Position numbers and translations under genes: made by a program. This document shows positions 6,869-24,060 of a stretch of 24,060 nucleotides of DNA, piece after piece; position 1 is the stretch's first letter; each line of letters starts with the position of its first letter. The notes under the pieces were generated by a model. That model saw only the letters and a list, made by a program, of their open reading frames with translations, ran no database searches and was not told the origin of the DNA. Source of the stretch: a virus; IMG/VR virus record IMGVR_UViG_3300032050_008557, positions 1-24,060 of that record; one strand, written 5' to 3'.

Positions 6869-6889
6869 GTCGACACTTAACTTGTTTTC

Positions 6890-6910
6890 ATTATATTTAT
6901 GTAATATAAT
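6890..6910 (+). promoter_or_regulatory. Candidate late promoter element within a short inverted repeat, before the protease gene
   Basis: TATTTAT at 6894-6900 lies 25 bases before the ATG at 6919. It is embedded in an AT-only inverted repeat (ATTATATT 6890-6897, AATATAAT 6903-6910). No suitably spaced -33 box is visible. Confidence 0.4.
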
Positions 6911-6918
6911 CTATTAAA

Positions 6919-7632
6919 ATGGGTATAAAAATATTAAAAGAAAACGAAGAAGGTTTTGGTATCTTAATTGAAGGTGATGCTGGTTCAGTATCTGAGGTAT
7001 TACAAGGACAAATTATAAATGAAGAAATTAGTAGGGGTCCAATAGATTTATCTGGACCCATATACTATTACGCTACATTACAAAAATATGGTGTTGAGAA
7101 TAGAAATGGCCGAGTGTATCCAGAAGACATTTTGAGAAGAGAAGTTGAAAGATATAGAGAAGTTATTGCTCGCAATTCTAGTTTTCATGAATTGGATCAC
7201 CCACAAGAATCTGTTATTTCGTTAAAAGGTGGTTCGCCACACAGAATAGTTGATATGTTCTGGAAAGATAATGTTCTTATTGGTAAACTAGAGATATTAG
7301 TATCTGAAGGCTTTAGGAGAGGTGGTATTATATCTTGTAATGGTGATTTAGTCGCACATTACCTAAGTTATGGTATGACATTAGGCATCTCTTCAAGAGG
7401 TGTTGGTAGTCTTAAAAAAGTTGGTGGTAAAAATGTTGTACAAAGTGACTTCGAATTAATCTGTTGGGATATCGTTTCATCCCCATCTACACCAGGCTCC
7501 TATCTTTATAAAGATCCACAAGACTTTAAAAAATATGATGAGGTTTTAAATGAGCCAAAGGAAATTGAGGAGAGTACCGCACCAGAAGAGAACGATTTTT
7601 TGGCAAATCTTAATAAATTTTTGAAATTTTAA
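6919..7632 (+). CDS. Prohead core protease (T4 gp21-like, peptidase family S77)
   Basis: This is the serine protease inside the prohead that cleaves scaffold, core and capsid proteins during maturation. The 237 residues carry the family hallmarks. There is the N-terminal block LQKYGVENRNGRVYPEDIL (about 54-72), H94 within ELDHP (91-95), and the nucleophile segment GISSRG (156-161, Ser158/Ser159). WDIVSSPSTPGS (183-194) follows. The length is close to T4 gp21 (212). The acidic C-terminal tail (about 210-237, with EEST and EEND) may be removed by self-cleavage, as in T4, though I cannot place the site. It lies upstream of scaffold and capsid genes, its expected substrates. Confidence 0.93.
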   Translation: MGIKILKENEEGFGILIEGDAGSVSEVLQGQIINEEISRGPIDLSGPIYYYATLQKYGVENRNGRVYPEDILRREVERYREVIARNSSFHELDHPQESVISLKGGSPHRIVDMFWKDNVLIGKLEILVSEGFRRGGIISCNGDLVAHYLSYGMTLGISSRGVGSLKKVGGKNVVQSDFELICWDIVSSPSTPGSYLYKDPQDFKKYDEVLNEPKEIEESTAPEENDFLANLNKFLKF

Positions 7633-9455: not shown

Positions 9456-11039
9456 ATGGGAGCATTATTAGAATCAGGAAAAGTTGGTAACGTAAGCTTA
9501 AATCACTTAAAGGCTGTACGTACTGACGTAATTAACAGATGGGACAGCTTAGGACTATTAGAAGGTCTTGCTGGTCACAGAAAAGAGAATATCGCACAAT
9601 TATTTGAAAACCAAGCATCACACATGCTTAACGAATCAGTTGCTTTAGGTAACGAAGGTTCTTTCGAAACTGTGGTATTCCCAATCGTGAGAAGAGTATT
9701 CTCAAAATTATTAGCTAACGAAATCGTTTCGGTTCAAGCATTAAACTTACCTATTGGTAAATTGTTCTATTTCATTCCGAAATTGGATAATTCAGCGTTT
9801 GACGCTACTTATGCGGGTATTCCAAAAACCGCTCAAAGTAACGTAAGTGCTAACCTTTATGATTCTTTCTACGGAGAGAACGGTCTTTATGACAAATCTA
9901 AAGGTGCTGCTACTACTTTAACTGGAGCTACAACTACAGCTAACTTGTATCAATTTGACTCAGCTTCTGCTAGTGGTTACGCTACTTTGGCTGGTACATC
10001 TTGTGCAACTGGCGCAACTTCAATCATCAAGGTTGATTTCGCTGCATCAATCACTAACTGGGAAAATGCTGAAGAAGTTATGTCTACATTGGCAATCGCT
10101 TCAGTTACTTCTGGTGCTGATTTCGATTTCTATTTACCAGCTCAAAAATATGGTAAATCAATCATGGATTCAAGTGGTGTTGTTTACATTGCCGTTGTTA
10201 ACAACAGTGCAACAGTAGCATTACCTTTGACTGGTTTAACCGTAACAGCTAAAGAATACGAATCTTTAGAGTACAATGATCAAATGGGTGAAGTAAGCTT
10301 CGAACTTCAATCTGTAACAGTTTCTGTTATTGAAAGAAAGTTAAGAGCTCAATGGTCTCCAGAATTAGCTCAAGACGTATCAGCGTTCCATAACATTGAT
10401 GCAGAAGCTGAATTGACAGCTTTATTGTCTGAGCAAGTTGCTGCTGAGATTGACCGTGAAATTTTACGTGACTTACGTAGAGGTGCTGCATGGAGAATGA
10501 CTTGGGATTACTCTGGTTCAAGAGTTAACACAGGTGGTTTATCTGCAACAAACGGTTTCTATACTCAAAAAGATTGGAACCAAACTTTGATCACTGCGAT
10601 CAACCAAGTTTCTGCACAAATCCACAAAGCTACTTTAAGAGGTGGTGCTAACTGGATCGTAGTTTCTGCTGAGGTTTCAGCTATCTTGGACGACTTAGAA
10701 TACTTCCACGTATCTAACGCTGCTCCAGAGCAAGACAAATATAACATGGGTATTGAAAGAATCGGTTCATTGGGTGGAAGATACCAAGTTTACCGTGATC
10801 CTTACTTCCCAGCTGATACAATCTTGATGGGTCACAAAGGTACATCTTTGTTGGATACAGGTTACATCTACGCACCATACGTGCCAATGCAATTAACTCC
10901 TACAATGTACAACCCATTCACCTTTGCACCAGTTAAAGGTATCATGACTCGTTACGCTAAGAAAATGGTTAACAACCGTTTCTATGGTGTAATCAAGTGT
11001 CAGAATATCGTTAGCTTCGGTATCACAGGTTTAAGATAA
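9456..11039 (+). CDS. Major capsid protein (T4 gp23-like)
   Basis: This is the hexamer-forming shell protein. The 527 residues match T4 gp23 in length (521) and layout. An N-terminal arm has ENIAQLFENQ (44-53), and MLNESVALGNEG (57-68) follows. The LNE at 58-60 fits the T4 protease rule (L/I-X-E), so mature protein probably starts at Ser61. The core includes VVFPIVRRVFSKLLANEIVSVQ (about 73-94), and the C-terminal gp23-like block has GVIKCQNIVSFGITG. Residues about 150-260 form an insertion, whose start (151-189) is strikingly rich in Ser, Thr and Ala. Codons are more C-ending (TTC, AAC) than in neighbouring genes, as expected for the most highly expressed gene. A strong terminator follows. 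Confidence 0.94.
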   Translation: MGALLESGKVGNVSLNHLKAVRTDVINRWDSLGLLEGLAGHRKENIAQLFENQASHMLNESVALGNEGSFETVVFPIVRRVFSKLLANEIVSVQALNLPIGKLFYFIPKLDNSAFDATYAGIPKTAQSNVSANLYDSFYGENGLYDKSKGAATTLTGATTTANLYQFDSASASGYATLAGTSCATGATSIIKVDFAASITNWENAEEVMSTLAIASVTSGADFDFYLPAQKYGKSIMDSSGVVYIAVVNNSATVALPLTGLTVTAKEYESLEYNDQMGEVSFELQSVTVSVIERKLRAQWSPELAQDVSAFHNIDAEAELTALLSEQVAAEIDREILRDLRRGAAWRMTWDYSGSRVNTGGLSATNGFYTQKDWNQTLITAINQVSAQIHKATLRGGANWIVVSAEVSAILDDLEYFHVSNAAPEQDKYNMGIERIGSLGGRYQVYRDPYFPADTILMGHKGTSLLDTGYIYAPYVPMQLTPTMYNPFTFAPVKGIMTRYAKKMVNNRFYGVIKCQNIVSFGITGLR

Positions 11040-11061: not shown

Positions 11062-11092
11062 AAAAGGGTGGATTTTTTCCACCCTTTTTTTG
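11062..11092 (+). terminator. Rho-independent terminator after the capsid gene
   Basis: A 10-bp perfect stem (AAAAGGGTGG 11062-11071 with CCACCCTTTT 11079-11088) and a 7-base loop run into T's to 11091. It separates the structural operon from the glycan operon. Confidence 0.92.
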
Positions 11093-11094
11093 TT

Positions 11095-11123
11095 TATATT
11101 TGTTTGTTTTTTTACTATATTTG
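11095..11123 (+). promoter_or_regulatory. Two host-type -7 boxes (TATATTTG) before the glycan operon
   Basis: TATATTTG occurs at 11095-11102 and again at 11116-11123, both perfect matches to the Bacteroidota TAnnTTTG box. A TTG at 11090-11092 lies 23 bases before the second. The second box is 28 bases from the ATG at 11145. The box differs from the TATTTAT element of the structural genes, so this operon may be expressed at a different time. Confidence 0.6.
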
Positions 11124-11144: not shown

Positions 11145-13898
11145 ATGAAAAAATTATTATACATCGCCCCACACCTTTCCACAGGCGGTTTACCACAGTA
11201 CTTAACTAAAAAAATTGAATTACTTAGAGATTCATTTGACATTTATGTTGTTGAATGGTCTAACCACACTGGTGGTGTGTTGGTTGTACAAAGAGATAAA
11301 ATAACTTCAATGGTCGCCCCAGATAAATTTTTTACTCTGGAAGAAAATAAAATTCAACTAATTGATATTATTAATAGGGTATCACCAGATATTGTACACT
11401 TAGAAGAAATTCCTGAATATTTCATGGATTTTGAGGTTGCAAAAGAAATTTACAAAAAAGATCGTAACTATGTTATTGTAGAAACTTCTCACGATTCATC
11501 ATACGATGCCACACAAAAGAAATTTTTCCCAGATAAATTTATGTTTGTATCTGATTGGCAAATTAAATTATTTGAATCAATCGATATCCCAAAAGTTTTG
11601 GTTGAATACCCTATTGAATATAAACAAAGGCCAAATAGAGAAGATGCATTAAAAGACCTTGGTTTAGATCCTAGTAAAAAACACGTATTACACGTTGGTT
11701 TATTTACACCAAGAAAAAATCAAAAAGAATTTTTTGATTACGCAAGATCTTTACCTGAATATGTTTTCCATTCTGTTGGTAATCAAGCTGGCAACTTTGC
11801 TCATTACTGGGAACCTTTGATGAAAGATAAACCAGAAAATGTTGTTTGGCATGGTGAAAGAAAAGATGTTGACAGGTTTTATCAGGCGATGGATTTATTC
11901 CTATTCACATCTAGAGGTACAGATAATGATAAGGAAACAATGCCTTTGGTTATCCGTGAAGCGATTTCCTGGAATTTACCAATTTTAATTTACAACCTTG
12001 GCGTTTATCTTAATTATTTCGATAAGTTTGATAATATCAAGTACTTAGATTTTTCTGATTTTAACAAAAATTGTTCTTTAATCAAAGAAGTTTTAGAAAA
12101 TGGTATTGAATTTCAACCAAAAGTTAAAGAAATTAACAAAGAAAAAGAAGCTATCATTATTTCAACATATCCAACAACAAAAAGTGTTTTTGATACAACA
12201 GTTGAATGTATTTTAGCGGCTAAAAGAACGGGTAGAAAAGTTATTTTAACATCACATTTACCAGTTTCACCAGATTTACAAAATTTGGTAGATTATTATA
12301 TCTACGATAAAAACAATATTTTAACAAAACATACATTCTACTCCCAAAGTAGATATAGTGAAGCTGATTTCTTTGCTTTTGTTAACTTAAGAGGTGAAGG
12401 TAACGATGTTTATCACGGCCCAACTTGCTACACAAATTATTATAATGGCGCTGCGTTGGCAAACGAATTGGGTATGGAAAAAGTTTATTTCCTTAACTAC
12501 GATTATGTTCTAAAAAATGATGCGTATCTAGATAACATTTCAAATATATTAGATACAAAATCCGCTTATTTTGGTGATATGCCAAACAATCCAGAAGGTC
12601 ATTCAGTTACCACATTTTTTATGGGTATTAGACCGTCTTTTTATTTAAATTCCGTAGAGCCAATATCTTGCGCACAAGATTATGAAAATTTAAGAACAAA
12701 ATGGGGTTCATTTAGTAATGGGTACGAAAATATGATGTTTTTTGCCTTCAAAGATAAAATGAACCAAATCGAATTGGTTGGTGAAGAACAGTTTAAAAAT
12801 GAAGTGGCGACTAATTTCCACCATAGAGATTATTCTAGGGTTGAATATTTCACAGTTTTGCCAACAACAGTACCTAACTCGTTTGCTGTTTATTTCCAGG
12901 TATCAAATTCAATTGACAGTAGAATTGTTAATATTAAAATTAATAAGAATGGGTCTTTACTTAAAGAGGAACAAATTACTGTAACAGGTAGAGGTGCTTG
13001 GTATAACATGGTTGGTTATAATTTAGATGAAAACGCTGAATATACCGTTGATTATCAGTCCTTTGATAAGGATACCCAACAATTTATTGAAAGTAAGTTT
13101 TTAAGAATTAACAATGATTATATCACAAATGTCTTACCGAATAACGGAATGTTTGAATATAAAGGTGATATTAACGGCATCAATTTATTGAGTGATAATG
13201 ATAGTTCAAAACCTAAAATTAGAATTGTACATTTAGTTACTGAACCATCAACCAACCCTAAAGAGTTACGTTCAGCTTTTTCTTTAAAAGATTTTGCTAG
13301 TAACTTCGACAATGTTGAATACTATGAAAAAATCAACGAGATCTACAAAGAGTTACCGCCAGTTGATACGTGTAATAGACCACATGATGTTGCACCTGAA
13401 CCAGGGTACTTCAAACTATCCCCAGGGCATTACGGCTGTTTCTTGGCACATAAAAACGGTATAACTTTACCAGATAACAACAAATATGATTTCATCTTAG
13501 TGTTTGAGGGTGATGTCATAATTGATGCACCTTACCAGGAATTGTATGATAATTTAATTAGATGGTCACAACTGGCTAAAGAAGAAAATGTTGATATGGT
13601 CGGTTTTGGTAACTACTGCGCTGAGAGATATAGTGGTGAGCGTGAGGATTTAATGCTTAATTTAAGTATTTTTGCACCAGCGCAATCTTACTTGATTAAT
13701 AGAGAAAAATTACCTACTTTTGTAGAAAGATTTGAAACGTGTAAATGGGATGCGTTTGACTTGTGGATGACCAAAGTTGCCAAACTACACGGTGCAATGG
13801 CAAACAAGATTTATACTAAACATTTACCAGGATATTCTATTGTAGATAGAAAAGATAAAAATAAAGACAACGACTACGCAGCAATTTTCACTAATTAA
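11145..13898 (+). CDS. Multidomain glycosyltransferase (GT4-like, unknown middle, GT25-like)
   Basis: The 917 residues divide into several units. Residues 1-330 look like a GT-B GT4-type transferase: N-terminal YIAPHLSTGGLPQYL, then HVGLFTPRKNQ (about 183), then an E-X7-E motif at E264 and E272 (ETMPLVIREA). Residues about 334-565 begin IIISTYPTTKSVFDTTVECI and look like an alpha/beta domain I cannot assign. About 570-680 resembles a beta-sandwich. About 690-917 resembles GT25 (LPS-type) transferases, with SPGHYGCFLAHKNGI and an acidic metal-binding motif FEGDV near 786. Sugar donors and acceptors cannot be read from sequence. It opens the glycan operon and overlaps the next gene by one base (TAATG). 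Confidence 0.85.
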   Translation: MKKLLYIAPHLSTGGLPQYLTKKIELLRDSFDIYVVEWSNHTGGVLVVQRDKITSMVAPDKFFTLEENKIQLIDIINRVSPDIVHLEEIPEYFMDFEVAKEIYKKDRNYVIVETSHDSSYDATQKKFFPDKFMFVSDWQIKLFESIDIPKVLVEYPIEYKQRPNREDALKDLGLDPSKKHVLHVGLFTPRKNQKEFFDYARSLPEYVFHSVGNQAGNFAHYWEPLMKDKPENVVWHGERKDVDRFYQAMDLFLFTSRGTDNDKETMPLVIREAISWNLPILIYNLGVYLNYFDKFDNIKYLDFSDFNKNCSLIKEVLENGIEFQPKVKEINKEKEAIIISTYPTTKSVFDTTVECILAAKRTGRKVILTSHLPVSPDLQNLVDYYIYDKNNILTKHTFYSQSRYSEADFFAFVNLRGEGNDVYHGPTCYTNYYNGAALANELGMEKVYFLNYDYVLKNDAYLDNISNILDTKSAYFGDMPNNPEGHSVTTFFMGIRPSFYLNSVEPISCAQDYENLRTKWGSFSNGYENMMFFAFKDKMNQIELVGEEQFKNEVATNFHHRDYSRVEYFTVLPTTVPNSFAVYFQVSNSIDSRIVNIKINKNGSLLKEEQITVTGRGAWYNMVGYNLDENAEYTVDYQSFDKDTQQFIESKFLRINNDYITNVLPNNGMFEYKGDINGINLLSDNDSSKPKIRIVHLVTEPSTNPKELRSAFSLKDFASNFDNVEYYEKINEIYKELPPVDTCNRPHDVAPEPGYFKLSPGHYGCFLAHKNGITLPDNNKYDFILVFEGDVIIDAPYQELYDNLIRWSQLAKEENVDMVGFGNYCAERYSGEREDLMLNLSIFAPAQSYLINREKLPTFVERFETCKWDAFDLWMTKVAKLHGAMANKIYTKHLPGYSIVDRKDKNKDNDYAAIFTN

Positions 13899-14491
13899 TG
13901 TATTTACACGGGCATAAATTAAACACTAAACACCCAGATTTTAGTCTTGGGTGGTGTGAATCGGTATTTAAAGAAATTTGGTTAGATCACGAATACTCAA
14001 GATATGGTGTTGAAGTTGAAAAAGGGGATATTGTTGTTGACTGTGGTGCTAATGTTGGTTTTTTTACTAACTACGCACTAAATTATCGTAAAGCAAAACA
14101 TGTTTACTCATTTGAGTGTGATGAAACTTATGTGGAATGTTTAAGACAAAATACAAATGAAAATGTTACCATAACACAAGCATTTGTTTCGGATAGAGAT
14201 GAAATTGGTCACTATAACATAGAGAGAATGTTACATGATTTTGGTTTAACCCACATCGATTTTATTAAAGTTGACATTGAGTGGTGGGAATACCCATTAT
14301 TAATTAACATGTCAAATGATACGATGAAAAGAGCGAACAAATGGGTAGTAGAACTACATAGTATATATGATAATTATGATAAAATATTAGATATAATTGA
14401 AAAATTTACATTAAATGGGTTTGATGTAAATTATGAACAAGTACACAAAGAAACAAACCTAGCATTATTATACGCAAAAAAGAGAATATGA
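13898..14491 (+). CDS. FkbM-type SAM-dependent methyltransferase
   Basis: The 197 residues carry the S-adenosylmethionine-binding motif VVDCGANVGFFT (about 46-57), the acidic ribose-binding end of strand 2 (SFECDE, about 70-75), and the FkbM-type motif IDFIKVDIEWWEYPLL, where most family members have a Gly after the Glu. FkbM enzymes typically O-methylate sugars or glycan-linked hydroxyls. The protein is somewhat shorter than usual, lacking much N-terminal extension. Its start overlaps the previous stop by one base and its end overlaps the next start by four (ATGA), so it is tightly coupled. Within this operon it probably methylates a sugar added by the neighbouring transferases. Confidence 0.88.
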   Translation: MYLHGHKLNTKHPDFSLGWCESVFKEIWLDHEYSRYGVEVEKGDIVVDCGANVGFFTNYALNYRKAKHVYSFECDETYVECLRQNTNENVTITQAFVSDRDEIGHYNIERMLHDFGLTHIDFIKVDIEWWEYPLLINMSNDTMKRANKWVVELHSIYDNYDKILDIIEKFTLNGFDVNYEQVHKETNLALLYAKKRI

Positions 14492-15438
14492 AAATTTGTC
14501 AAGTACATCCTGGATGTGGAATACCAGTGCCACCACCTAATTGGGGTGCTGTAGAAAAAATAGTATGGGAATTTACCCAGAATTTAAGATTATTAGGGCA
14601 TGAGGTTGACATCAAATATGCAAATGAAATTCAACCAGGTGAATATGATGTTGTTCACGTGCACATGGCCAATTTATGCCATTTTTTACACGATAGAGGT
14701 ATACCATACATTTATCAATTACATGATCACCACGCTTATTACTATGGTAAGGGGTCTTATGTGTTCAACCAAAATAATAGGGCTATTCTCGAGTCACAGG
14801 TTTCATTAATGCCAGGTAGATTTTTAGTACCTTACTTTGAAACAGAAAAAGCTATTTATTTTTCACATGGTGTGAATACCGATTTTTATCACCCTTCAGA
14901 CATCAGACCTAAAGAGCATAAACTATTATGTTTAGCTAATAACGGATTAGCTGGTATGGATGGGTACGATAGAAAAGGTTTTGGCTTTGCAATTCAAGCC
15001 GCAATGGCAAGAAATCTACCGATCACAATTGCTGGTCCAAGAAATAACCAAAATTTCTTTAATGAGAATCCGTGGGTTAATGGGTACGCAAAATTATCAA
15101 TTGAGTGGGAACCTAATCAAGATGAATTAGTTAATCTATACCATAGACATACAATTTTTATGCACCCTTCTGAATTAGAAGCTGGCCACCCTAATTTAAC
15201 TATATTAGAGGCCGCTGCATGTGGCTTACCAATTAACGGTGCCATTGAGATGGAAACTGATTTTAACGGTATGTGGAGAGCACCTAGAAAGGTTACAGAT
15301 ATTGTACGTGGGTTAGATGATATTATAGCTAATTACGATTCATACCGTGAAAGAGCTATTCAACACGCTGAGTCTTTATCATGGTACAATAGATCAAAAG
15401 AATTATTAGAAGTTTATAAACAATACGCACAACAATGA
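14488..15438 (+). CDS. GT4-type glycosyltransferase
   Basis: The 316 residues have a GT-B fold pattern. The N-terminal KICQVHPGCGIPVPPPNWGA (2-21) resembles the GGxE-type acceptor loop of GT4 enzymes. VVHVHMAN (55-62) follows, then a linker to the donor-binding half, which has CLANNGLAGMDGYDRKGFGFAIQA (about 148-171). The nucleotide-sugar motif HPSELEAGHPNLTILEAAACGLP (226-248) has its two glutamates (E231, E241) separated by nine residues rather than seven, a loop variant. The length is at the short end for GT4 (usually 350-400). Both ends overlap neighbours by four bases (ATGA). Donor and acceptor are unknown. Confidence 0.9.
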   Translation: MKICQVHPGCGIPVPPPNWGAVEKIVWEFTQNLRLLGHEVDIKYANEIQPGEYDVVHVHMANLCHFLHDRGIPYIYQLHDHHAYYYGKGSYVFNQNNRAILESQVSLMPGRFLVPYFETEKAIYFSHGVNTDFYHPSDIRPKEHKLLCLANNGLAGMDGYDRKGFGFAIQAAMARNLPITIAGPRNNQNFFNENPWVNGYAKLSIEWEPNQDELVNLYHRHTIFMHPSELEAGHPNLTILEAAACGLPINGAIEMETDFNGMWRAPRKVTDIVRGLDDIIANYDSYRERAIQHAESLSWYNRSKELLEVYKQYAQQ

Positions 15439-17060
15439 GGATATTAGGGCTTTCAGCTGGATCACATTCTTGTGGTATAAGCTTAATAGAGAACGGTAAG
15501 ATAATCTTTTCTTTAGAAGAAGAAAGGCATACAAGAATAAAAGTTTACAAAGATTTTTATGGCGGTTATTTTAGATACCCACAGTTATCAATGTATGAAG
15601 CGGTTAAAAGATTTAACCTAGATCCAAACTCAGTTGATTATATAACGAGTTATTACCCCAAACATGAGGTTAAAGTATTTTGGGAAAGCTTAGGGTTAGG
15701 TCTATTCCCTGAACAGAAATTCATATTCATTGATCATCATGATTCACATGCTGGGACCGCTTATTATATGAGCGGTTTTGATGATGACACACTTGTTGTT
15801 ACCATGGATGCCAGCGGTGGACAGTATAGTGCAAAATATTTCGTAGGTTCTAATGGTGATTTAGATTATATCGATGGTTTGGATTTAACAAGAAAATCTT
15901 TTGGTCATTATTATGCCATGTTAACAGAATTTTTAGGTTTTAGAAGACTTAAAGATGAAGGTAAAGTTGTTGGTATGGCCGCACACGGTAGACATGATAG
16001 CCTATCATACCAAGCCTTTAATGAGTGTATTAAAATTGAGGGTATACACACCGATAAAGACCAATCAGACGTACTATTAGGTCAAATTTATGTTGATTTT
16101 TATACCAGATATTATAAATCATTAGGTTCTAAAGTGTTTTTTGGGACAAAAGCTGACTTAGCATATACAGGGCAATTTGTTTTTGAGGAAAAAATATTAC
16201 AAGTTTTTAATAACTTACATAACATGTACCCAAACATTAAAAAAGTTGCTGTAGCTGGTGGAGTTTTTGCTAATGTAAAATTAAATAAACGCATCAATGA
16301 ATTATATTGGGTTAATGAAATGTTTGTCGCACCCCCAATGGGTGATGAAGGTTGTCCGCTTGGTTGTGCTTTATTGGTACATAAAATGTTTACACCAGGG
16401 TTCAAACCATTTAGATTAGAAAACATGTTTATGGGTACGGAGTATACTGATACTGAAGTTGGTGAACATTTTTGGGACCAAAATAAATTTTCAAGGGAGA
16501 TATTCACCCCAGAATTGGCAGCAAAATACTTGGCTGAAGGTAAAATTATCGGTATGTTCAACGGAAGGTATGAGCACGGCCCAAGGGCTTTAGGTAATCG
16601 TAGTATTATTGGTGAGGTAACTAACCCAGATACATATGATAAAATTAATAACAAACTACAAAGAAATGATTTCATGCCATTTGCGCCAGCTGTAATGGAA
16701 GAACATGCTGATACAATTTTTAATGTCACAAAATCAAGATATACAGCTGAGTTTATGACGATGTTATATGATACAAGACCTGAGTGGGCCAATAGAATAC
16801 CAACAGTTGTTCATCCTAAGGATAAAACGGCTAGGATACAAATAGTAACTAAAACAAGCAATCCAACATTCTATAAAGTTTTGGATGAATATAATAAAAT
16901 AACTGGCGTACCTGTTCTTTTAAATACATCATTTAATGTACACGAAGAACCAATCGTATGTCACCCAAACGAAGCGTTTAATCATTTACAGAATGACGTT
17001 GTTGACTTATTAATAATAAATAATTTTATCTACAAAAAATATGAAGGACATCTTAATTAA
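15435..17060 (+). CDS. O-carbamoyltransferase (NodU/TobZ family)
   Basis: The 541 residues match this family in length and in both domains. The N-terminal Kae1-like domain has MRILGLSAGSHSCGISLIENG, metal-binding DHHDSHA (100-106), the phosphate/nucleotide segment VVTMDASGGQ (121-130), and EGKVVGMAAHG (175-185). The C-terminal YrdC-like domain has NGRYEHGPRALGNRSII (about 376-392) and LLNTSFNVHEEPI. The enzyme uses carbamoyl phosphate and ATP, via carbamoyl-AMP, to carbamoylate a sugar hydroxyl, as in NodU (Nod factor) and TobZ (tobramycin). In this operon the target is probably a sugar laid down by the transferases. It overlaps the next gene by 20 bases. Confidence 0.93.
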   Translation: MRILGLSAGSHSCGISLIENGKIIFSLEEERHTRIKVYKDFYGGYFRYPQLSMYEAVKRFNLDPNSVDYITSYYPKHEVKVFWESLGLGLFPEQKFIFIDHHDSHAGTAYYMSGFDDDTLVVTMDASGGQYSAKYFVGSNGDLDYIDGLDLTRKSFGHYYAMLTEFLGFRRLKDEGKVVGMAAHGRHDSLSYQAFNECIKIEGIHTDKDQSDVLLGQIYVDFYTRYYKSLGSKVFFGTKADLAYTGQFVFEEKILQVFNNLHNMYPNIKKVAVAGGVFANVKLNKRINELYWVNEMFVAPPMGDEGCPLGCALLVHKMFTPGFKPFRLENMFMGTEYTDTEVGEHFWDQNKFSREIFTPELAAKYLAEGKIIGMFNGRYEHGPRALGNRSIIGEVTNPDTYDKINNKLQRNDFMPFAPAVMEEHADTIFNVTKSRYTAEFMTMLYDTRPEWANRIPTVVHPKDKTARIQIVTKTSNPTFYKVLDEYNKITGVPVLLNTSFNVHEEPIVCHPNEAFNHLQNDVVDLLIINNFIYKKYEGHLN

Positions 17061-17625
17061 CGAATACAATAATACTGAAATCTTAGCAAAAGATTACAAA
17101 CAACCAGCAAACTCATTTATAGTACATTTTGTAAATGGTGCTTTATGTGAAATTAAAGGACCGATATCAAAAAAATACAAGGTTGTTTTTTCTGATAATA
17201 AAACTGGGCACGTTCATCACGTATCTGAGATTACAAATAACATGTGGACTAAAAGTGCCATTGAATATTTTATCGAATGGAATATTAAAGTATATGAGTT
17301 AGAAACGGAAGAGTTAGTTTTTGAACACACATACGATTGTAAAGATAAAAGGGTTTACATCCATTTAGATAGCTCTGCTGTTGGTGATACAATGGCTTGG
17401 TTTCCGTATGCGGATGAGTTCAGAAAAAAACACGGGTGTAAAGTTTTGTGCTCAACATTCCATAATGAATGGTTTGAGGGTATGTTAAACCTGGTACACC
17501 TGTTATTGATTTATACGCAATGTATAAGATTGGTTGGTTTTACGATAATAAAGAAGTTGTTAAAACCAAAATCCCGATTGATTTTAAACAGCACCCTTTA
17601 CAAGAAACTAGTTCATGTATTCTAG
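17041..17625 (+). CDS. Autotransporter-type O-heptosyltransferase, N-terminal part (frame broken)
   Basis: Residues 1-147 look like the N-terminal half of the TibC/BAHT family. A beta-rich start (about 25-95) is followed by the first Rossmann segment, VYIHLDSSAVGDTMAWFPYA (105-124), and KVLCSTFHNEWFEG (134-147). After about 17481 the frame becomes a basic, hydrophobic tail unlike the family. The family sequence continues in the -1 frame as VKPGTPVIDLYAMYKIGWFYDN and on to 18293. Joined, the product is about 410 residues, near TibC (about 406). The break could be a sequencing or assembly indel, a real mutation, or a programmed -1 shift at G_TTA_AAC (17484-17490). It starts with ATG at 17041, inside the end of the carbamoyltransferase gene. 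Confidence 0.82.
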   Translation: MKDILINEYNNTEILAKDYKQPANSFIVHFVNGALCEIKGPISKKYKVVFSDNKTGHVHHVSEITNNMWTKSAIEYFIEWNIKVYELETEELVFEHTYDCKDKRVYIHLDSSAVGDTMAWFPYADEFRKKHGCKVLCSTFHNEWFEGMLNLVHLLLIYTQCIRLVGFTIIKKLLKPKSRLILNSTLYKKLVHVF

Positions 17626-18293
17626 GGTTGGATTATGAAGAGGTTAAACCAAAGGTTTTTGTACCAGAAGAGCCTAGTAGAATTGAAGGTAAATATGTTA
17701 TTATTGCACCTCACGCATCTGCACACGCTAAATATTGGAATCATCCAGGCGGATGGCAAGGTGTTATTGATCACTTAAATGCTAGTGGTTATAAGGTTGT
17801 TATGATTACATCAGAAAAACTGGGTGATGCTTGGCATGATTCAAAACTTGGTGGTACATTAAGAAATGTTATTGATAAAACTGGTGGTCATATTGATCTG
17901 GTTGACAGAATGATTGACATTAAACACGCATCGGCTTTTATTGGTTTAGGTAGTGGTTTAAGTTGGTTATCTTGGGCTATCGGAACACCTACAGTTCTTA
18001 TCTCTGGATTTAGTTACCCTTTATCTGAGTTTGCTGACTGTGAAAGGATTTTTAACCCAAATGTTTGTAACGGATGTTTTAATAGACATTGGTTAAACCC
18101 AGGGGATTGGGAATGGTGCCCAGATCACAAAGATACACCAAGACACTTTGAATGTTCTAAAACTATTGAAACTCAAACTGTTATAGACGCTGTTAATAGA
18201 CTTTTAACCAAAAAAGAAGAGCCAGTTCAAGAGGTCATTGAAGAAAATTTAGAAAAAAAAGATAAAAAAAGTTTTTTTGGTAAGTTTTTTTAG
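17520..18293 (+). CDS. Autotransporter-type O-heptosyltransferase, C-terminal part
   Basis: The frame is open from 17478 (after a TGA at 17475); its first ATG is at 17520. The 257 residues from that ATG carry the catalytic GT-B half of the TibC/BAHT family: IIAPHASAHAKYWNHPGGWQ (61-80), IGLGSGLSWLSWAIGTPTVLISG (141-163), and the cysteine cluster C183-x2-C186-x13-C200-x11-C212. In TibC-type enzymes such a cluster binds iron. These enzymes transfer heptose from ADP-heptose to Ser in strand-loop-strand repeats of secreted proteins, an unusual protein O-glycosylation. The C-terminus adds a short Glu/Lys tail ending KKSFFGKFF. Translation from the ATG alone would lack the N-terminal half, so activity probably needs the joined product. 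Confidence 0.85.
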   Translation: MYKIGWFYDNKEVVKTKIPIDFKQHPLQETSSCILGLDYEEVKPKVFVPEEPSRIEGKYVIIAPHASAHAKYWNHPGGWQGVIDHLNASGYKVVMITSEKLGDAWHDSKLGGTLRNVIDKTGGHIDLVDRMIDIKHASAFIGLGSGLSWLSWAIGTPTVLISGFSYPLSEFADCERIFNPNVCNGCFNRHWLNPGDWEWCPDHKDTPRHFECSKTIETQTVIDAVNRLLTKKEEPVQEVIEENLEKKDKKSFFGKFF

Positions 18294-18294
18294 G

Positions 18295-18302
18295 TATATT
18301 TG
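18295..18302 (+). promoter_or_regulatory. Host-type -7 box before the cell-wall hydrolase operon
   Basis: TATATTTG matches the TAnnTTTG consensus perfectly and lies 28 bases before the ATG at 18330 (counting from the end of the box). The nearest upstream TTTG (18276-18279) is only 15 bases away, so the -33 element is weak. Its last three bases overlap the inverted repeat at 18300-18327. Confidence 0.5.
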
Positions 18303-18327
18303 TTGCTATAACATATAATAGCAACAA
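18300..18327. repeat. 10-bp perfect inverted repeat overlapping promoter and leader (operator candidate)
   Basis: TTGTTGCTAT (18300-18309) is matched by ATAGCAACAA (18318-18327) with an 8-base centre. It begins inside the -7 box and ends two bases before the start codon, so it spans the expected transcription start. It lacks a terminator T tract in the right place. A repressor operator is the simplest reading; an mRNA 5' hairpin is the alternative. Confidence 0.7.
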
Positions 18328-18329
18328 CT

Positions 18330-18905
18330 ATGTTTTATAAATATGACGAAAAACAACTCAAATTTGTTAAGAACAAATTGGGTATAAGGATAGCATTAGG
18401 AACCACCATTTTATTGATGGTTGGTTCCTTTTTTATTGGTAGGTATACCAGCGGTACACTCACTAAATATGAAAAAGAGTATATTCATATTAATTGGGAA
18501 AAAGAACGTAACGCTATTAATAAAGAAAAACTAGCTAAAGAACTAAAAGAATCTGGTATTAAATTCCCACACATTATAATGGCCCAGGCTATTATTGAAT
18601 CTGGTAATTTTAAGAGCGACCTTTATAAATCAAATAATAATCTATTTGGTATGACAATACCTGGTTCAAGAAATACCACCAATATTGCTGTTGATGGTAA
18701 ATATGCTAAATATAACACATGGCAAAGGTGTGTGCTTGATATGGCTTATCTGCAACAATATAATTTAAAGGGTATTAGATTAGGTAATGATGAGGATTAC
18801 TTTATATATTTGAAAAATAGTAATTACGCTGAAGCTCCGAATTATATAGCCGCTTTAAAAAACGTAATAGATAAAGAAAATTTAAAATCTTATTTTAATG
18901 AGTAA
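18330..18905 (+). CDS. Membrane-anchored glucosaminidase (GH73-like peptidoglycan hydrolase)
   Basis: The 191 residues have a short basic N-terminus, one hydrophobic segment (about 19-37, IRIALGTTILLMVGSFFIG) acting as a signal anchor, then a charged linker (about 45-75). A GH73/FlgJ-type domain follows: FPHIIMAQAIIESGNFKSDL (79-98) with probable catalytic Glu90, NNNLFGM (102-108), and a C-terminal YAEAPNYIAALKNVI (166-180). It should cleave beta-1,4 N-acetylglucosaminyl bonds in peptidoglycan on the outer face of the inner membrane. Such an anchored enzyme fits a signal-anchor endolysin; a host-interaction role is possible. It has its own promoter and possible operator, and overlaps the peptidase gene by 8 bases. 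Confidence 0.85.
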   Translation: MFYKYDEKQLKFVKNKLGIRIALGTTILLMVGSFFIGRYTSGTLTKYEKEYIHINWEKERNAINKEKLAKELKESGIKFPHIIMAQAIIESGNFKSDLYKSNNNLFGMTIPGSRNTTNIAVDGKYAKYNTWQRCVLDMAYLQQYNLKGIRLGNDEDYFIYLKNSNYAEAPNYIAALKNVIDKENLKSYFNE

Positions 18906-19731
18906 AGAAAAATTAAAAGATATTCTTTCAACACCAACTTATTGTGGGCAAGAACAATATCTTATAGCAAAAATAACCAAATATCTTAGTGAAAGTAATC
19001 TGGATTATGTTATTGATGAACACGGTAATATCTTCGTAACAAAGGGTATTGCCGAACATTATCCATGTGTTGTTGCACACACTGATTCTGTGCATAGAAT
19101 TGTTGATATGGATATCTTACATCACCCAGATGAAGAAGACATTATATATGCGGTTGAAAAAGGCACAAATAAGCCCACTGGCTGCGGTGGGGATAATAAA
19201 GCGGGTGTTTATGTATGTTTGGAGTTACTTGAGCGTGTAGAGGTCTTAAAAGCGGCTTTTTTCGTATCTGAGGAATATGGTTGTTTCGGGTCAACACTAG
19301 CAGATGAAGTTTTTTTTCAGGATGTTGGTTATGCTTTACAATTTGATGCACCTGAAAACGATTGGGTTACACACTATTGTAATGGTGTTAAGTTATTTGA
19401 CGAAAATGGTGATTTTTATAAAACAATAAAGCCAATATTGGAAGATTACATGGGTGATTATTCTTTAGGTAGACACCCATATACTGATGTTAGTATTCTT
19501 GGTGCGTTTTATGATTTTTCATGCATCAACTATTCAGTAGGTTATTATAACATGCATTCAAAGATGGAGTATGTTAGTATTAGTTTTGCACAACAAGCCA
19601 GAAATATCGCTTTAGAGATCATTACATCCCTGGGTAATATAAAGTACACATTTGTTGATGAAAACGTCAGAATTGATAAGGAAAAGGCTAAAGAAAGGGC
19701 TTTAAAATCACTTAACGGTTTAAGGAAATAA
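18898..19731 (+). CDS. Zinc metallopeptidase (M20/M28/M42-like)
   Basis: The 277 residues keep the full set of metal and catalytic positions of di-zinc aminopeptidases: H61 and D63 in VVAHTDSVH, bridging D99 in GCGGDNKAG (95-103), E125-E126 in SEEYGCFGS, D150 in QFDAPEN, and H220 in MHSKMEYVS. The lid or dimerisation domain is small, so the protein is shorter than PepT or PepV (about 400). The fold class is clear; the exact family and substrate are not. No signal peptide is visible, so it is probably cytoplasmic. Its start lies inside the glucosaminidase gene, which suggests a shared purpose such as processing peptidoglycan peptides, or host peptide salvage. Confidence 0.88.
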   Translation: MSKEKLKDILSTPTYCGQEQYLIAKITKYLSESNLDYVIDEHGNIFVTKGIAEHYPCVVAHTDSVHRIVDMDILHHPDEEDIIYAVEKGTNKPTGCGGDNKAGVYVCLELLERVEVLKAAFFVSEEYGCFGSTLADEVFFQDVGYALQFDAPENDWVTHYCNGVKLFDENGDFYKTIKPILEDYMGDYSLGRHPYTDVSILGAFYDFSCINYSVGYYNMHSKMEYVSISFAQQARNIALEIITSLGNIKYTFVDENVRIDKEKAKERALKSLNGLRK

Positions 19732-19733
19732 AA

Positions 19734-19760
19734 AAAGGGGCGCTAGGCCCCTTTCTTATT
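19734..19760. terminator. Bidirectional terminator between converging genes
   Basis: An 8-bp stem (AAAGGGGC 19734-19741 with GGCCCCTTT ending at 19754) and a 5-base loop are followed by CTTATTTT on the plus strand and TTTTTTATTT on the minus strand. It serves both the peptidase gene and the fibre gene. Confidence 0.88.
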
Positions 19761-19763
19761 TTA

Positions 19764-22700
19764 TTATTTCTTTAAATCTTGGATCTCTTTATCAAGATCT
19801 TTTATCGCCTCGATAAGTAAACCAACCAAGTTTGAGTAAGCTACCGCTAAGTGTCCATCGGATTCCCTTGTCGAGATAACTTCTGGGACAACTTTTTGAA
19901 CTTCCTGTGCAATAACACCCATTTTCAAAGATTTATCTTCAATATCATTTCTTGTATAGTTAACACCTCTCATATTTCTTACTTTATTTAAGGCATCACT
20001 AATTGTAACAACATTGTCCTTAACTCTTTGATCTGAGTATGCAATAACATCAGCAGATGCGTAGATAGTACCAGTAACATCTAATGTATATGCTGGAGTA
20101 GCGTTGTTAATACCTAATCTTGTATTAGCTATATCCGCTTTCAAGAAGCTAACGCTTTGTACTTGTGTTGTACTCACAGTTCTAACTAAGTAGTCAGGTT
20201 GGTTTGTGAATGAACCACCGCTGATACCTGATGTACCGCTAATTGATTGTCCACTTGTTCCAGCAACACCTGATGTACCGTTTGAACCATTAATACCTGA
20301 AGTACCACCAGCTCCATTTGCACCTGAGTTACCAGCAGCTCCAGCGGTACCATTTGTACCATTTGCACCAGATGTACCATTTGTACCAGATGTACCTGAA
20401 GAAGCTGACAATCTACCAGTACCAGCCGTACCGCCAGCACCTGAAGTACCAGATGTACCTGAAGTACCAGAAGATCCGTTAGCACCCGAAGTACCGTTAG
20501 CACCAACACCTGATGTACCAGCACCTGATGTACCTGAAGTACCAGCTGTTGCTGAAGTACCAGAAGAACCAGCTGTACGAGAAAGACCCGATACACCACC
20601 AGTACCAGTTGTACCACCTGTTGCAGAAGAACCTGATAAACCACTAATACCTGAGTTACCGTTGTTACCAGACGTACCGTTTGTACCAGTTGATCCTGAA
20701 GAACCAGAAGTACGAGATAAACCACTAGCCCCAGCGTTACCATTATTACCAACAGTACCGTTTGTACCAGTTGATCCTGAACTACCTGATGTACCACTTG
20801 CCTGTGTTACGCCAAAACCTGCGCTTAATGCATTAGCACCCACAGTACCATTTGTACCGCTTGATCCTGAAGAACCAGAAGAGCCAGAGTTTGCAGAAGC
20901 ACCAATGTTACCAGCATTACCTGAAGTACCATTTGTACCAGTTGATCCAGATGAGCCACTTAATGCTGACGCACCTATGTTACCCGCAGCACCGTTTGTA
21001 CCATTAGACCCTGAAGAACCAGATGAACCAGAGGCTCCTGAGTTAGCAACTAAACCTATTGTACCGCTTGTACCTGAAGAACCACTTGATCCTGAAGCAC
21101 CTGATATTCTATCATTACCACTTGTACCCTGAGTACCAGTTGATCCAGAAGATCCAGATGAACCAGAGTTTGCCGATAATCCGTTAGCACCAGCATTACC
21201 TGAGGTACCGTTTGTACCTGTAGATCCAGACGAACCACTCAATGCTGATGCACCAATGTTACCCGCAGCACCATTTGTACCATTTGTTCCCGAAGAACCA
21301 GATGTACCTGAAAGTGTACTTGTACCAGAAGGAACAACCAAACCATTTGTACCAGCCGTACCTGTAGATCCAGATGAACCACTATTACCTGAGTTACCGT
21401 TAGCGCCATTGTTACCGTTAGTACCGTTTGTACCATTTGAACCCGATAAACCACTATTACCTGAGTTACCGTTAGCGCCATTGTTACCGTTAGTACCAGT
21501 AGAACCATTTGTACCACTTAAGCCAGAGTTACCGCTGTTACCATTCACACCGATAGTACCATTTGTTCCTGAAGAACCACTTGATCCAGAAGAACCAGAT
21601 AATCTTGATAAACCTGAAACACCATCTGTACCTGAAGTACCAGTTGATCCAGCTGAACCTGAAGAACCTGAGCTTCTGCTTAAACCCGATTGACCATCTG
21701 TACCTGAGGTACCTGATGTTCCAGCTGTTGCAGAAGAACCAGCTAATCTACTTAAACCTGATGTACCAACCGTACCGTTTGTTCCTGAAGAACCACTTGA
21801 TCCAGACGAACCTGAAGCACCTGAGTTAGCCATTAAACCGACTGTACCGTTTGTACCGTTTGAACCACTTGAACCAGATGCACCACTTACAGCGTTGTTA
21901 CCATTGTTACCTGAGGTACCGTTTGTACCTGTAGATCCAGACGAACCACTCAATGCTGATGCACCATTACCACCGTTTATACCGTTTGTACCAGTTGACC
22001 CTGAAGAACCGCTAGAGCCAGAGTTAGCACTCAATCCGTTGTTACCCGCAGCACCATTTGTACCAAACGTACCTGATGATCCTGAAGAACCTGAAAGTGT
22101 ACTTGTGCCAGAAGGAACGGCTAAACCATTTGTACCAGCCGTACCTGTAGATCCAGATGAACCAGAAGATGCTGAAGAACCACTTAATTGTGATAAACCT
22201 GAGTTACCAGTTGTACCTGAAGTACCAGTTGAACCACTGGTACCTGAAGAACCAGAGTTTCTTGATAACCCTGACGCACCATCAGTACCCGCAGTACCAG
22301 TTGTACCAGAAGAACCTGAAGTTGCAGAAGAACCAGCTAATCTACTTAAACCTGATGTACCATTTGTACCATTTGTTCCTGAAGAACCAGATGACCCTGA
22401 GGAACCAGAAGCACCTGAGTTAGCCATTAAACCAACAGTACCGTTTGTACCATTAGATCCTGAAGAGCCTGAAGCGCCACTTACCGCATTGTTACCATTA
22501 TTACCGTTAGTACCGTTTGTACCTGTAGATCCAGACGAACCTGAGTTTGCAGAGGCACCACTATTACCAGCAGCTCCAGCAGTACCATTTGTACCAGTTG
22601 TTCCTGAAGAACCTGAAGAACCCGACAATTGTGATAAACCACTATTACCAGCAACACCCGCAGTACCAGTTGTACCAGAAGTTCCTGAAGAACCACTTAT

Positions 22701-24060
22701 CGCAGAAAAAGTACTTTGACCTGAAGTTGCGTTAAGACCGTTTGTACCAGACGTACCTGATGAACCAGCTGTTGCTGAAGAACCAGACAACCTACTTAAA
22801 CCAGAAACACCATCTGTACCTGAAGTACCTGTTGAACCAGCTGATCCAGAAGAACCTGATGTATCACTTGCAGCGGATATACCATCTGTACCTGAAGTAC
22901 CTGATGTACCAGCTGTTGCTGAAGAACCAGACAATCTTGATAAACCTGATGTACCAACTGTACCATTTGTTCCTGAAGAACCAGATGAAGCAGATGAGCC
23001 ACTTAATGCGCTTAAACCGTTATTACCAGCATTACCTGAAGTACCATTTGTACCAGTTGATCCAGATGAACCACTTAATGCTGACGCACCTATGTTACCT
23101 GCCACACCATTTGTACCATTTGAACCTGAGGTTGCAGATGAACCACTTAATTGTGATAAACCTGAAGCGCCAGCTGTACCTGAAGTACCAGTTGTACCTG
23201 ATGTCGCTGATGAACCGCTATTTAAGCTTAATCCTGAAGCACCCGCAGTACCATTTGTTCCTGAAGAACCTGAAGTTGCTGAAGAACCAGAACTACCACT
23301 TAAACCACTATTACCTGAATTACCCGCAGTACCATTTGTACCTGTTGATCCTGAAGAACCTGAGGTCCCTGAAGATCTACTCAATGCCGATGCACCGTCT
23401 GTACCAGCGGTACCAGTTGTTCCAGAAGTACCTGAAGTACCAGCAGAGCCAGATAATCTTGACAATCCTGATGTACCAACTGTACCGTTTGTTCCTGAAG
23501 AACCTGAAGAAGCGCTTGATCCGCTTAATTGAGACAATCCTGAATTACCAGCTGTTCCGTTTGATCCGCTCGTACCTGAAGTTGCGGATGAACCAGATGA
23601 ACCTGCGCTACCACTTAATTGTGATAAACCGTTTGTACCCGCAGTACCTGTTGATCCAGAAGATGCTGAAGAACCAGCTGTTGCACTCAATCCTGAGTTA
23701 CCAGCCGCACCTGAAGTACCGTTTGAACCTGTACTACCTGAGCTACCAGATGTACCAGAAGATCTACTCAAACCAGATTGGCCATTAGTACCTGAAGTAC
23801 CAGTTGAACCAGCTGAACCTGAGCTACCACTTAATTGTGATAGACCATTTGTACCTGCTGTACCTGAAGTAGCTGAAGTACCAGCTGATCCTGAAGAACC
23901 GCTATTTGCACTAGCACCATTTGTACCGTTTGTACCAGTTGATCCACTTGATCCAGATGTTCCACTTGATTTACTTAATGATGATTGACCATCTGTTCCA
24001 TTTGTTCCAGAAGAACCACTTGTTCCTGAAGAACCTGAAGATCTACTTAAACCTGATGTA
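19764..24060 (-). CDS. Giant collagen-like tail fibre with C-terminal S74 chaperone domain (N-terminus outside window)
   Basis: The frame stays open to the right edge, so the gene starts beyond it; the TTG at 23771 is not a meaningful start. About 1430 residues are visible. Some 1280 of them form a Gly-X-Y stalk in which X and Y are mostly Ser, Thr, Asn and Ala, with only two prolines (in VPSGTS). At regular interruptions Gly is replaced by Gln, Arg, Ala or Asn (GLSQLS, GLSRLS, GASALS). A short beta-rich linker follows (LGINNATPAYTLDVTGTIYA), then an S74 intramolecular chaperone: AYSDQRVKDNV with the expected self-cleavage just before the Ser, GVIAQEVQKVVPEVI, and a C-terminal coiled coil ending DLDKEIQDLKK. 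Such domains fold trimeric fibres and then cut themselves off. The product is probably a long host-recognition fibre. Confidence 0.9.
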   Translation of the reverse strand, partial: TSGLSRSSGSSGTSGSSGTNGTDGQSSLSKSSGTSGSSGSTGTNGTNGASANSGSSGSAGTSATSGTAGTNGLSQLSGSSGSAGSTGTSGTNGQSGLSRSSGTSGSSGSTGSNGTSGAAGNSGLSATAGSSASSGSTGTAGTNGLSQLSGSAGSSGSSATSGTSGSNGTAGNSGLSQLSGSSASSGSSGTNGTVGTSGLSRLSGSAGTSGTSGTTGTAGTDGASALSRSSGTSGSSGSTGTNGTAGNSGNSGLSGSSGSSATSGSSGTNGTAGASGLSLNSGSSATSGTTGTSGTAGASGLSQLSGSSATSGSNGTNGVAGNIGASALSGSSGSTGTNGTSGNAGNNGLSALSGSSASSGSSGTNGTVGTSGLSRLSGSSATAGTSGTSGTDGISAASDTSGSSGSAGSTGTSGTDGVSGLSRLSGSSATAGSSGTSGTNGLNATSGQSTFSAISGSSGTSGTTGTAGVAGNSGLSQLSGSSGSSGTTGTNGTAGAAGNSGASANSGSSGSTGTNGTNGNNGNNAVSGASGSSGSNGTNGTVGLMANSGASGSSGSSGSSGTNGTNGTSGLSRLAGSSATSGSSGTTGTAGTDGASGLSRNSGSSGTSGSTGTSGTTGNSGLSQLSGSSASSGSSGSTGTAGTNGLAVPSGTSTLSGSSGSSGTFGTNGAAGNNGLSANSGSSGSSGSTGTNGINGGNGASALSGSSGSTGTNGTSGNNGNNAVSGASGSSGSNGTNGTVGLMANSGASGSSGSSGSSGTNGTVGTSGLSRLAGSSATAGTSGTSGTDGQSGLSRSSGSSGSAGSTGTSGTDGVSGLSRLSGSSGSSGSSGTNGTIGVNGNSGNSGLSGTNGSTGTNGNNGANGNSGNSGLSGSNGTNGTNGNNGANGNSGNSGSSGSTGTAGTNGLVVPSGTSTLSGTSGSSGTNGTNGAAGNIGASALSGSSGSTGTNGTSGNAGANGLSANSGSSGSSGSTGTQGTSGNDRISGASGSSGSSGTSGTIGLVANSGASGSSGSSGSNGTNGAAGNIGASALSGSSGSTGTNGTSGNAGNIGASANSGSSGSSGSSGTNGTVGANALSAGFGVTQASGTSGSSGSTGTNGTVGNNGNAGASGLSRTSGSSGSTGTNGTSGNNGNSGISGLSGSSATGGTTGTGGVSGLSRTAGSSGTSATAGTSGTSGAGTSGVGANGTSGANGSSGTSGTSGTSGAGGTAGTGRLSASSGTSGTNGTSGANGTNGTAGAAGNSGANGAGGTSGINGSNGTSGVAGTSGQSISGTSGISGGSFTNQPDYLVRTVSTTQVQSVSFLKADIANTRLGINNATPAYTLDVTGTIYASADVIAYSDQRVKDNVVTISDALNKVRNMRGVNYTRNDIEDKSLKMGVIAQEVQKVVPEVISTRESDGHLAVAYSNLVGLLIEAIKDLDKEIQDLKK
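20206..24060 (-). repeat. Degenerate 9-base (Gly-X-Y) repeat array encoding the fibre stalk
   Basis: The whole stretch repeats with a 9-base period at the Gly codons. Higher-order blocks recur at the DNA level: 21196-21255 and 21907-21966 are identical over 60 bases (711 apart, a multiple of 9), and 21377-21425 and 21449-21497 are identical over 49 bases (72 apart). The array shows no spacer/repeat alternation. Long plus-strand reading frames rich in Pro, Val and Glu across it are shadows of the Gly/Ser/Thr codons. Confidence 0.92.

Follow-up and report, generated by a model that had tools for sequence, protein, structure and literature searches.

Comparative evidence for a phage-encoded O-glycosylation cassette that probably acts on a giant collagen-like fibre

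Freeman et al. are said to have described O-glycosylation of mycobacteriophage virions in 2023. As far as the available parts of the literature go, virion glycosylation by phages (mycobacteriophages) and glycosylated bacterial collagens are both already known. Mycobacteriophage glycosyltransferases modify the phage's own structural proteins, the acceptors being capsid and tail tube, and the available text mentions no collagen-like acceptor (PMC12363180, PMC11652166). In bacteria, the heptosyltransferases TibC and AAH act with the autotransporters TibA and AIDA-I, which offer repetitive, Ser-containing acceptors, according to the available sections of the TibC paper (PMC4358343). Here we describe a virus record of IMG/VR (IMGVR_UViG_3300032050_008557; 24,060 bases, hereafter the window), a T4-like fragment in which an operon of five overlapping enzyme genes, the last of them encoding a TibC-type enzyme, converges on the gene for a giant collagen-like fibre. 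We consider the operon and the fibre most likely to be functionally linked, with the fibre as acceptor. From comparison of sequences, the operon would probably be a protein O-glycosylation cassette that the phage encodes and directs mainly at its own Ser/Thr-rich fibre. The system resembles TibC/AAH in having a repetitive Ser-containing acceptor, and differs in being phage-borne, with a collagen-like fibre in place of an autotransporter as the likely acceptor and with extension and capping enzymes alongside, often in one frame. The word "phage" is absent from the main text of the TibC paper, and neither a phage TibC nor a glycosylated phage collagen fibre was found in the titles and abstract openings of the open-licence papers searched.

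The enzyme genes occupy positions 11145-18293 of the plus strand and overlap successively by 1, 4, 4 and 20 bases. Their order, coordinates and overlaps are as an earlier sequence-only reading of the window had proposed, with the correction that the TibC gene is split. The first gene (11145..13898) encodes a glycosyltransferase (GT) fusion made of a GT4 domain (residues ~1-330), a middle part (~335-665) and a GT25-like part (~672-917). It is followed by genes for an FkbM-type methyltransferase (13898..14491; PF05050, 6.8e-10), a GT4 glycosyltransferase (14488..15438; PF00534, 5e-7), a NodU/TobZ-type O-carbamoyltransferase (15435..17060; PF16861, 3.3e-59; PF02543, 1.7e-33) and a TibC-type (BAHT) heptosyltransferase (17041..18293, in two frames, 17041-17625 and 17520-18293), the last assigned by Pfam and by intact relatives. 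PHROGs, Pfam and solved structures back the GT4, FkbM, GT4 and carbamoyltransferase assignments. Membership of the NodU/TobZ family is given both by the two Pfam domains and by 12 solved relatives, among them the novobiocin enzyme, GdmN and TobZ (1.1e-49 to 2.7e-45).

The GT fusion was delimited with Pfam (GT4, PF00534, 1.4e-11) and a structural model (mean pLDDT 78.7), whose GT4 domain aligned with HepE at a VIA-align Z of 21.7 and a root-mean-square deviation of 3.3 over 302 residues, the VIA-align rows spanning residues 1-325 only. In the window protein, Glyco_transf_25 reaches 15.3 and 16.1 bits (E 0.019), short of the 24 bits that Pfam requires; it matches weakly in 12 of 16 relatives (best 1.1e-4) and exceeds the cut-off in one farther relative (27.8 vs 24 bits). 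Among the Foldseek matches of the model is a human collagen galactosyltransferase, COLGALT1 (1.4e-9, 670 columns), the aligned part not being displayed. Neither the middle nor the GT25-like part gave a credible match in PDB profile searches, and a PDB sequence search with the entire fusion gave no match. Among 61 related proteins, 27 stop ahead of the GT25-like part.

The TibC-type protein is the sole operon enzyme whose family reportedly attaches sugar to protein. In the window, its frame is disrupted by a 19-nt deletion near position 17485, leaving a second piece recognised as GT9 by Pfam (1e-10) and a first piece in which TibC_1st scored below the cut-off (0.019). This deletion is unique to the window among the contigs compared (L003, L004, L005, L006, L007 and L009), and the gene is intact at the break site in L003, L004 and L005 (423 aa). 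Since these three contigs are near-identical to the window, the break is likely an assembly error or a single-strain event. Fifteen relatives were translated, and the protein was always 400-425 aa long. A slippery-looking heptamer lies at the break; programmed frameshifting was rejected because 19 nt are missing relative to the other contigs.

We used the intact L003 protein for comparison, which matched the E. coli TibC structure 4RAP at 6.2e-61 (residues 66-397). The top 21 Foldseek rows for its model (mean pLDDT 71.4) were all TibC chains (9.1e-30 to 4.4e-24). With functional residues taken from the available text of the TibC structure paper (PMC4358343), the catalytic base Asp110 and Lys230, Arg286 and Trp305 of TibC correspond to Asp116, Lys237, Arg296 and Trp315 of L003, and the iron-finger cysteines 339, 342, 358 and 370 to Cys349, 352, 366 and 378, in a region (350-377) where the model is of low confidence. 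Three of the four sugar-site residues are conserved, Thr226 being replaced by Ser233, and none of the nine catalytic, sugar-site and iron-finger positions varies among the 10 relatives compared. The fold, the Asp, Lys, Arg and Trp and the four cysteines are shared with TibC, unlike the tip of its thumb, a beta-hairpin, whose Phe265 and Val266 are not conserved in the alignment. By sequence and fold similarity, the last gene of the operon belongs to the BAHT (TibC) heptosyltransferases and, by analogy, its product would probably transfer heptose from ADP-heptose to protein Ser. As rfaE domain II, for ADP-heptose supply, was above the cut-off in 0 of 25 phage records (weak in 3), the donor likely comes from the host; for gmhA, the 0 of 1 metagenome-assembled genome (MAG) is uninformative.

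The fibre gene (19764..24059, minus strand; assigned by Pfam and PHROGs) extends past the contig at its 5' end and encodes at least 1431 aa, namely a 1283-aa stalk and, C-terminal to it, a part that includes an S74 chaperone domain (Collagen, 3.9e-111; Peptidase_S74, 1.8e-13). The description of a nearly Pro-free, Ser/Thr-rich Gly-X-Y fibre of about 1280 residues converging on the operon proved accurate, the stalk having at least 1283 aa. Its composition is Ser 28.5%, Gly 28.5%, Thr 14.0%, Ala 9.1%, Asn 9.0%, Pro 0.2% and Lys 0.1%, and 79% of it lies within Gly-X-Y runs of at least three triplets, in which X is mainly Thr and Ser and Y mainly Ser and Asn. The protein is a long Gly-X-Y repeat with a trimerisation module and may form a triple helix. 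The same fibre reaches 2426-2620 aa in L009, L011, L012 and L014, with frames still open, and fibres whose N-terminus is present (L178, L176 and L016) match the PHROG tail fibre and collagen-like tail families. In the available part of one review, bacteriophage collagens are put at only ~18 residues (PMC8968730), far below these stalks.

Two described systems combine collagen-like proteins with glycosylation. Mimivirus encodes both collagen-like proteins and collagen-glycosylating enzymes; however, it is an amoebal virus whose collagen glucosyltransferase, in the available text, acts on hydroxylysine (PMC9546862, PMC9614988, PMC8968730), whereas in the present stalk, with 0.1% Lys, the sugar is more likely to be carried by Ser. 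The BclA protein of Bacillus spores likewise has a glycosylated bacterial collagen-like stalk, but it is cell-encoded, and according to the review, as far as available, Gram-positive collagens typically have Pro at X and Thr at Y (PMC8968730). A Riftia-like glycosylation of Thr, to which the sequence-only reading had pointed, would need Thr in Y and is not supported for this fibre, in which Thr is found in X and Y is mainly Ser and Asn; for TibC, modified Ser but no modified Thr is reported in the available text (PMC4358343).

The sequence-only reading had called for a survey of related phages for co-occurrence of BAHT genes and Ser/Thr-rich Gly-X-Y fibres, which we carried out from both directions. 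Starting from the enzyme, viral contigs were scanned with a TibC alignment (best 80 of 361 relatives), and 84 loci were taken (L003-L017, L051, L065, L157-L222 and L343; L143-L156 repeat the contigs of L003-L017), yielding 57 distinct TibC genes. Loci with at least 2.5 kb ahead of the GT fusion, or with an array present, were counted as covered, which left 38 TibC loci and 19 uncovered ones; an array was scored as Ser/Thr-rich at a score of at least 15, with Ser+Thr of at least 30% and Pro below 5%. Such an array was present in 29 of the 38. The identical script found one in none of the TibC-less control loci, 0 of 41 found by the carbamoyltransferase (mean 14.2 kb) and 0 of 74 found as capsid relatives (mean 11.5 kb). 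The comparison somewhat favours the association, in that a locus with an array is covered by definition and some of the controls are shorter.

Starting from the repeat, viral contigs were scanned with GSSGTSG-type and GPxGPx-type patterns (at least 120 matches each), and 50 records of each type were searched whole. TibC was found in 21 of the 50 GSSGTSG-type records, which served as a positive control for the GPxGPx-type records, where it was found in 0 of 50. When only true arrays (score 20) in the sampled records were considered, TibC accompanied 20 of 45 Ser/Thr-rich arrays vs 1 of 30 Pro-rich arrays (Fisher p 6e-5), the lone Pro-rich case (L384) being borderline at 5% Pro. We examined up to 20 kb around TibC in every positive record but G005, whose match lies at the record end, and in 15 of these 20 a Ser/Thr array lay within ~10 kb of TibC. 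In records of at least 50 kb, an array was near TibC in 10 of 14 vs ~2.8 expected from stretch length, an expectation that is too low as it ignores array length and multiple arrays per record. We also considered that array composition might be tailored to TibC, and rejected this (Ser 0.398 in 21 TibC-positive vs 0.386 in 25 TibC-negative records; p 0.76).

The enzymes are also joined physically. In 13 of 20 loci, TibC and a GT4 domain are encoded in one frame, the GT4 matching the operon's second GT4 in 8 and the first GT4 domain in the other 5. In L475, the TibC region (2e-113) lies in a single frame (1500 of 1527 aa scanned) together with GT25 above the cut-off, GT4 and FkbM; this frame faces another, at least 3200 aa long, that encodes an array. 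FkbM is fused to the GT fusion in L343 (by Pfam) and L199 (by similarity). Layouts differ, being convergent after the capsid gene in the window group, and co-directional (fibre, GTs, TibC) in others, with Microcystis phage Mel-JY01 as a further case. The shared frames and varied layouts indicate that these activities move as a group while their order changes.

TibC occurs in 4 of 50,697 phage records, three of them from uncultured huge phages and the fourth from Mel-JY01, the one named isolate in which we found it. In Mel-JY01, a single 1226-aa protein joins GT4 and TibC, and a collagen-like frame of at least 1015 aa lies 1.7 kb upstream on the same strand; in the deposit (PP395634.1, 1-3049; L141), antisense hypothetical genes are annotated over most of this frame. 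When the GT fusion was used as probe, 3 of the 50,697 records were matched, two being copies of one huge phage and the third an Enterococcus phage with a partial match (query 155-297), Mel-JY01 being absent from them. In LR756501, an array (score 21.5) adjoins the relative of the GT fusion. Two peptide patterns run against bacterial and archaeal genome contigs found one TibC relative, in a Winogradskyella MAG, on a phage-like contig with a Gly-X-Y fibre and frames resembling tail sheath and tube; of 100 genomes of that MAG's family, the MAG itself was the only one with TibC.

Enzyme families, conserved TibC catalytic residues, fibre sequence, cross-virus association and shared frames are established by these observations; acceptor identity, donor sugar, order of action, timing and benefit we infer as follows. 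In the infected cell, the TibC-type enzyme would add the first sugar, probably heptose from host ADP-heptose, onto Ser of nascent Gly-X-Y chains, ahead of trimerisation aided by the C-terminal S74 domain. The glycan would then be extended by the GT4 enzymes, together with the GT25-like domain in phages that have it, and capped with methyl and carbamoyl groups by the FkbM enzyme and the carbamoyltransferase before the decorated fibre joins the virion. The benefit may be a stiffening of the proline-free triple helix or altered surface properties. If so, phages would glycosylate their own fibres through an enzyme family known from bacterial autotransporters and, if this were proven, the fibre would be a glycoprotein whose sugars are attached by enzymes of the virus itself. 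This raises two testable questions, how collagen-like stalks with almost no Pro and a length of one to several thousand residues fold and keep their stiffness, and to what extent phages encode the glycans on their own surface. A broader and tentative idea, which we hold to be possible rather than probable, is that many phages carry a self-contained collagen-decorating module, in which a BAHT-started and then extended O-glycan takes the place of proline and hydroxyproline in stabilising and coating giant collagen fibres that contain almost no proline, while the caps (carbamoyl, methyl, sulfo, 2-oxoglutarate oxygenase) are swapped among phages like surface variants.

Several observations weigh against fibre glycosylation by the operon. 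The comparative support is strong (the 29 of 38 loci, the contrast between array types and the shared frames), but there is no direct proof and no glycan has been seen; moreover, the window's own TibC frame is broken. The loci are related by descent, and p-values overstate their independence. Nine of the 38 TibC loci lack a Ser/Thr-rich array as defined. L180 and L201 carry a giant fibre of a different repeat type, L196 a Pro-containing Gly-X-Y fibre with 15% Ser+Thr, L205 a short array, L008 an array scoring 13 (limit 15) and L017 one with 16% Ser+Thr, while L010, L199 and L219 have no array within the stretch examined. Regular occurrence of the operon without such repeats, which the sequence-only reading had counted, along with a change in host surface glycan, against virion glycosylation, is seen in this minority, some of which are contig-end or near-threshold cases. 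Likewise, LR756504 has TibC and no array within 20 kb, and 25 of the 45 Ser/Thr arrays are in records without TibC, many of them fragments. Array composition is equal with and without TibC, and ~9-kb loci alone give a weaker contrast (TibC with 9 of 108 Ser/Thr-rich vs 1 of 62 Pro-rich). When 35 capsid relatives (of 80 loci) were searched whole, three without TibC held Gly-X-Y arrays, two of them at the contig end, and L065, the lone TibC-positive one, had no array by the exact pattern (nine Gly in register). L065, a 141-kb record whose capsid protein is related at 76%, has its peptidase, TibC and GT4 matches inverted near the contig end.

Enzymes of these families also act in surface polysaccharide pathways. 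It is conceivable, though unlikely, that they remodel host surface glycan (lipopolysaccharide or capsule), for example to block superinfection, and lie beside the fibre since both belong to a variable host-recognition region. Pelagimyophage glycosyltransferases beside tail fibres were interpreted in this way in the available text of PMC7029224, and the carbamoyltransferase relatives occur in the 41 loci devoid of both TibC and array. Against this speak the protein Ser reportedly modified by TibC (PMC4358343, as far as available) and the fact that TibC accompanies Ser/Thr-rich rather than Pro-rich arrays and shares frames with GTs; in addition, a sheath-like frame follows TibC in 10 of 10 loci read, sheath and tube having been tested with PHROGs, and found, in L161 only. 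A slightly less probable alternative is that the cassette glycosylates another virion protein, be it a Ser-rich protein after TibC, a YadA-like fibre or the capsid. Ser-rich frames directly after TibC in L161 (5935-6867, S 22%) and L180 (9188-10207, S 16%), which count against the collagen-like fibre as acceptor, are in line with it, as are L180 and L201, where TibC occurs without a Gly-X-Y array; in the window, however, a lysin gene comes after TibC, and most TibC loci do have the array. The capsid in particular, whose Ser/Thr-rich insert (~9906-10022) the sequence-only reading had named as a second target, finds no support: the Ser+Thr content of the insert is high (29% over 59 aa) without setting it apart, the 22-35% of 10 TibC-group capsids overlapping the 16-32% of 16 TibC-less ones (a subset of the 74 capsid-relative loci).

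Least probable of the three, in our estimate, is that the cassette is inactive or decaying in the window strain, so that with a broken TibC frame the glycan is never started. The 19-nt deletion would agree with this, as would L005, near-identical to the window, in which the carbamoyltransferase match is shortened and the fibre frame broken, by assembly error or variation. Yet L003, L004 and L005, with near-identical neighbours, keep TibC intact, and none of the 15 translated relatives is truncated. Glycosylation of the collagen-like fibre remains the reading that we prefer.

As for its context, the window carries terminase, portal, core-protein and gp23 capsid genes, gp23 being assigned by Pfam and PHROGs, and terminase and portal by their resemblance to genes annotated in the immuto phage. 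At the DNA level, phage records match over 33 bases only, in four Flavobacterium phage records (immuto group), whose capsid protein is 32% identical to the window's. The five operon genes recur in the viral contigs L003 and L004 (111 and 206 kb) with 100% protein identity, the TibC break excepted. The gp23 gene (9456..11039, plus strand; Pfam) contains the insert mentioned above, and the preceding 440-aa gene holds nearly two copies of a 96-bp unit (8716-8895, 89% match). Between the capsid gene and the operon are a terminator-like hairpin (11062..11088, plus strand), by consensus match only, and a match to a Bacteroidota-type promoter consensus (11089..11123, plus strand), 21 nt ahead of the operon's first codon; this signal is weak, with 1 match in the whole window vs 2.2 expected by chance. 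The late-promoter motif TATAAATA, with one mismatch allowed, was not in excess (64 vs 74.6 expected), and neither a tRNA gene nor an Rfam family at gathering score was found in the window. Downstream of TibC on the plus strand are genes for a glucosaminidase-type lysin (18330..18905; PF01832, 9.6e-19), not found in some relatives, and a PHROG 4191-type peptidase (18898..19731; PHROGs, 7.7e-39), and another terminator-like hairpin (19731..19757, both strands, consensus match) marks the point where operon and fibre converge.

Some relatives carry further genes. The Ser-rich frame of L161 mentioned above has SSSYA-type repeats and no Pfam or PHROG match. A sulfotransferase (PF13469, 1.1e-18) is encoded ahead of the GT fusion in L180 (4263-5081), with a similar frame in L201, and both loci carry the other giant fibre in place of Gly-X-Y. 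In L196, a DUF6445 protein and a GT2-methyltransferase are encoded ahead of the GT fusion, and the frames of L198 and L199 begin alike. A search for 2-oxoglutarate oxygenases (0 of 12) was uninformative, since it missed L196's own copy. This copy, a 2-oxoglutarate/Fe(II) oxygenase (6499-7089; PF13640, 1e-13), also lies ahead of the GT fusion, in an operon whose fibre contains Pro, and may conceivably act on that fibre as a prolyl hydroxylase.

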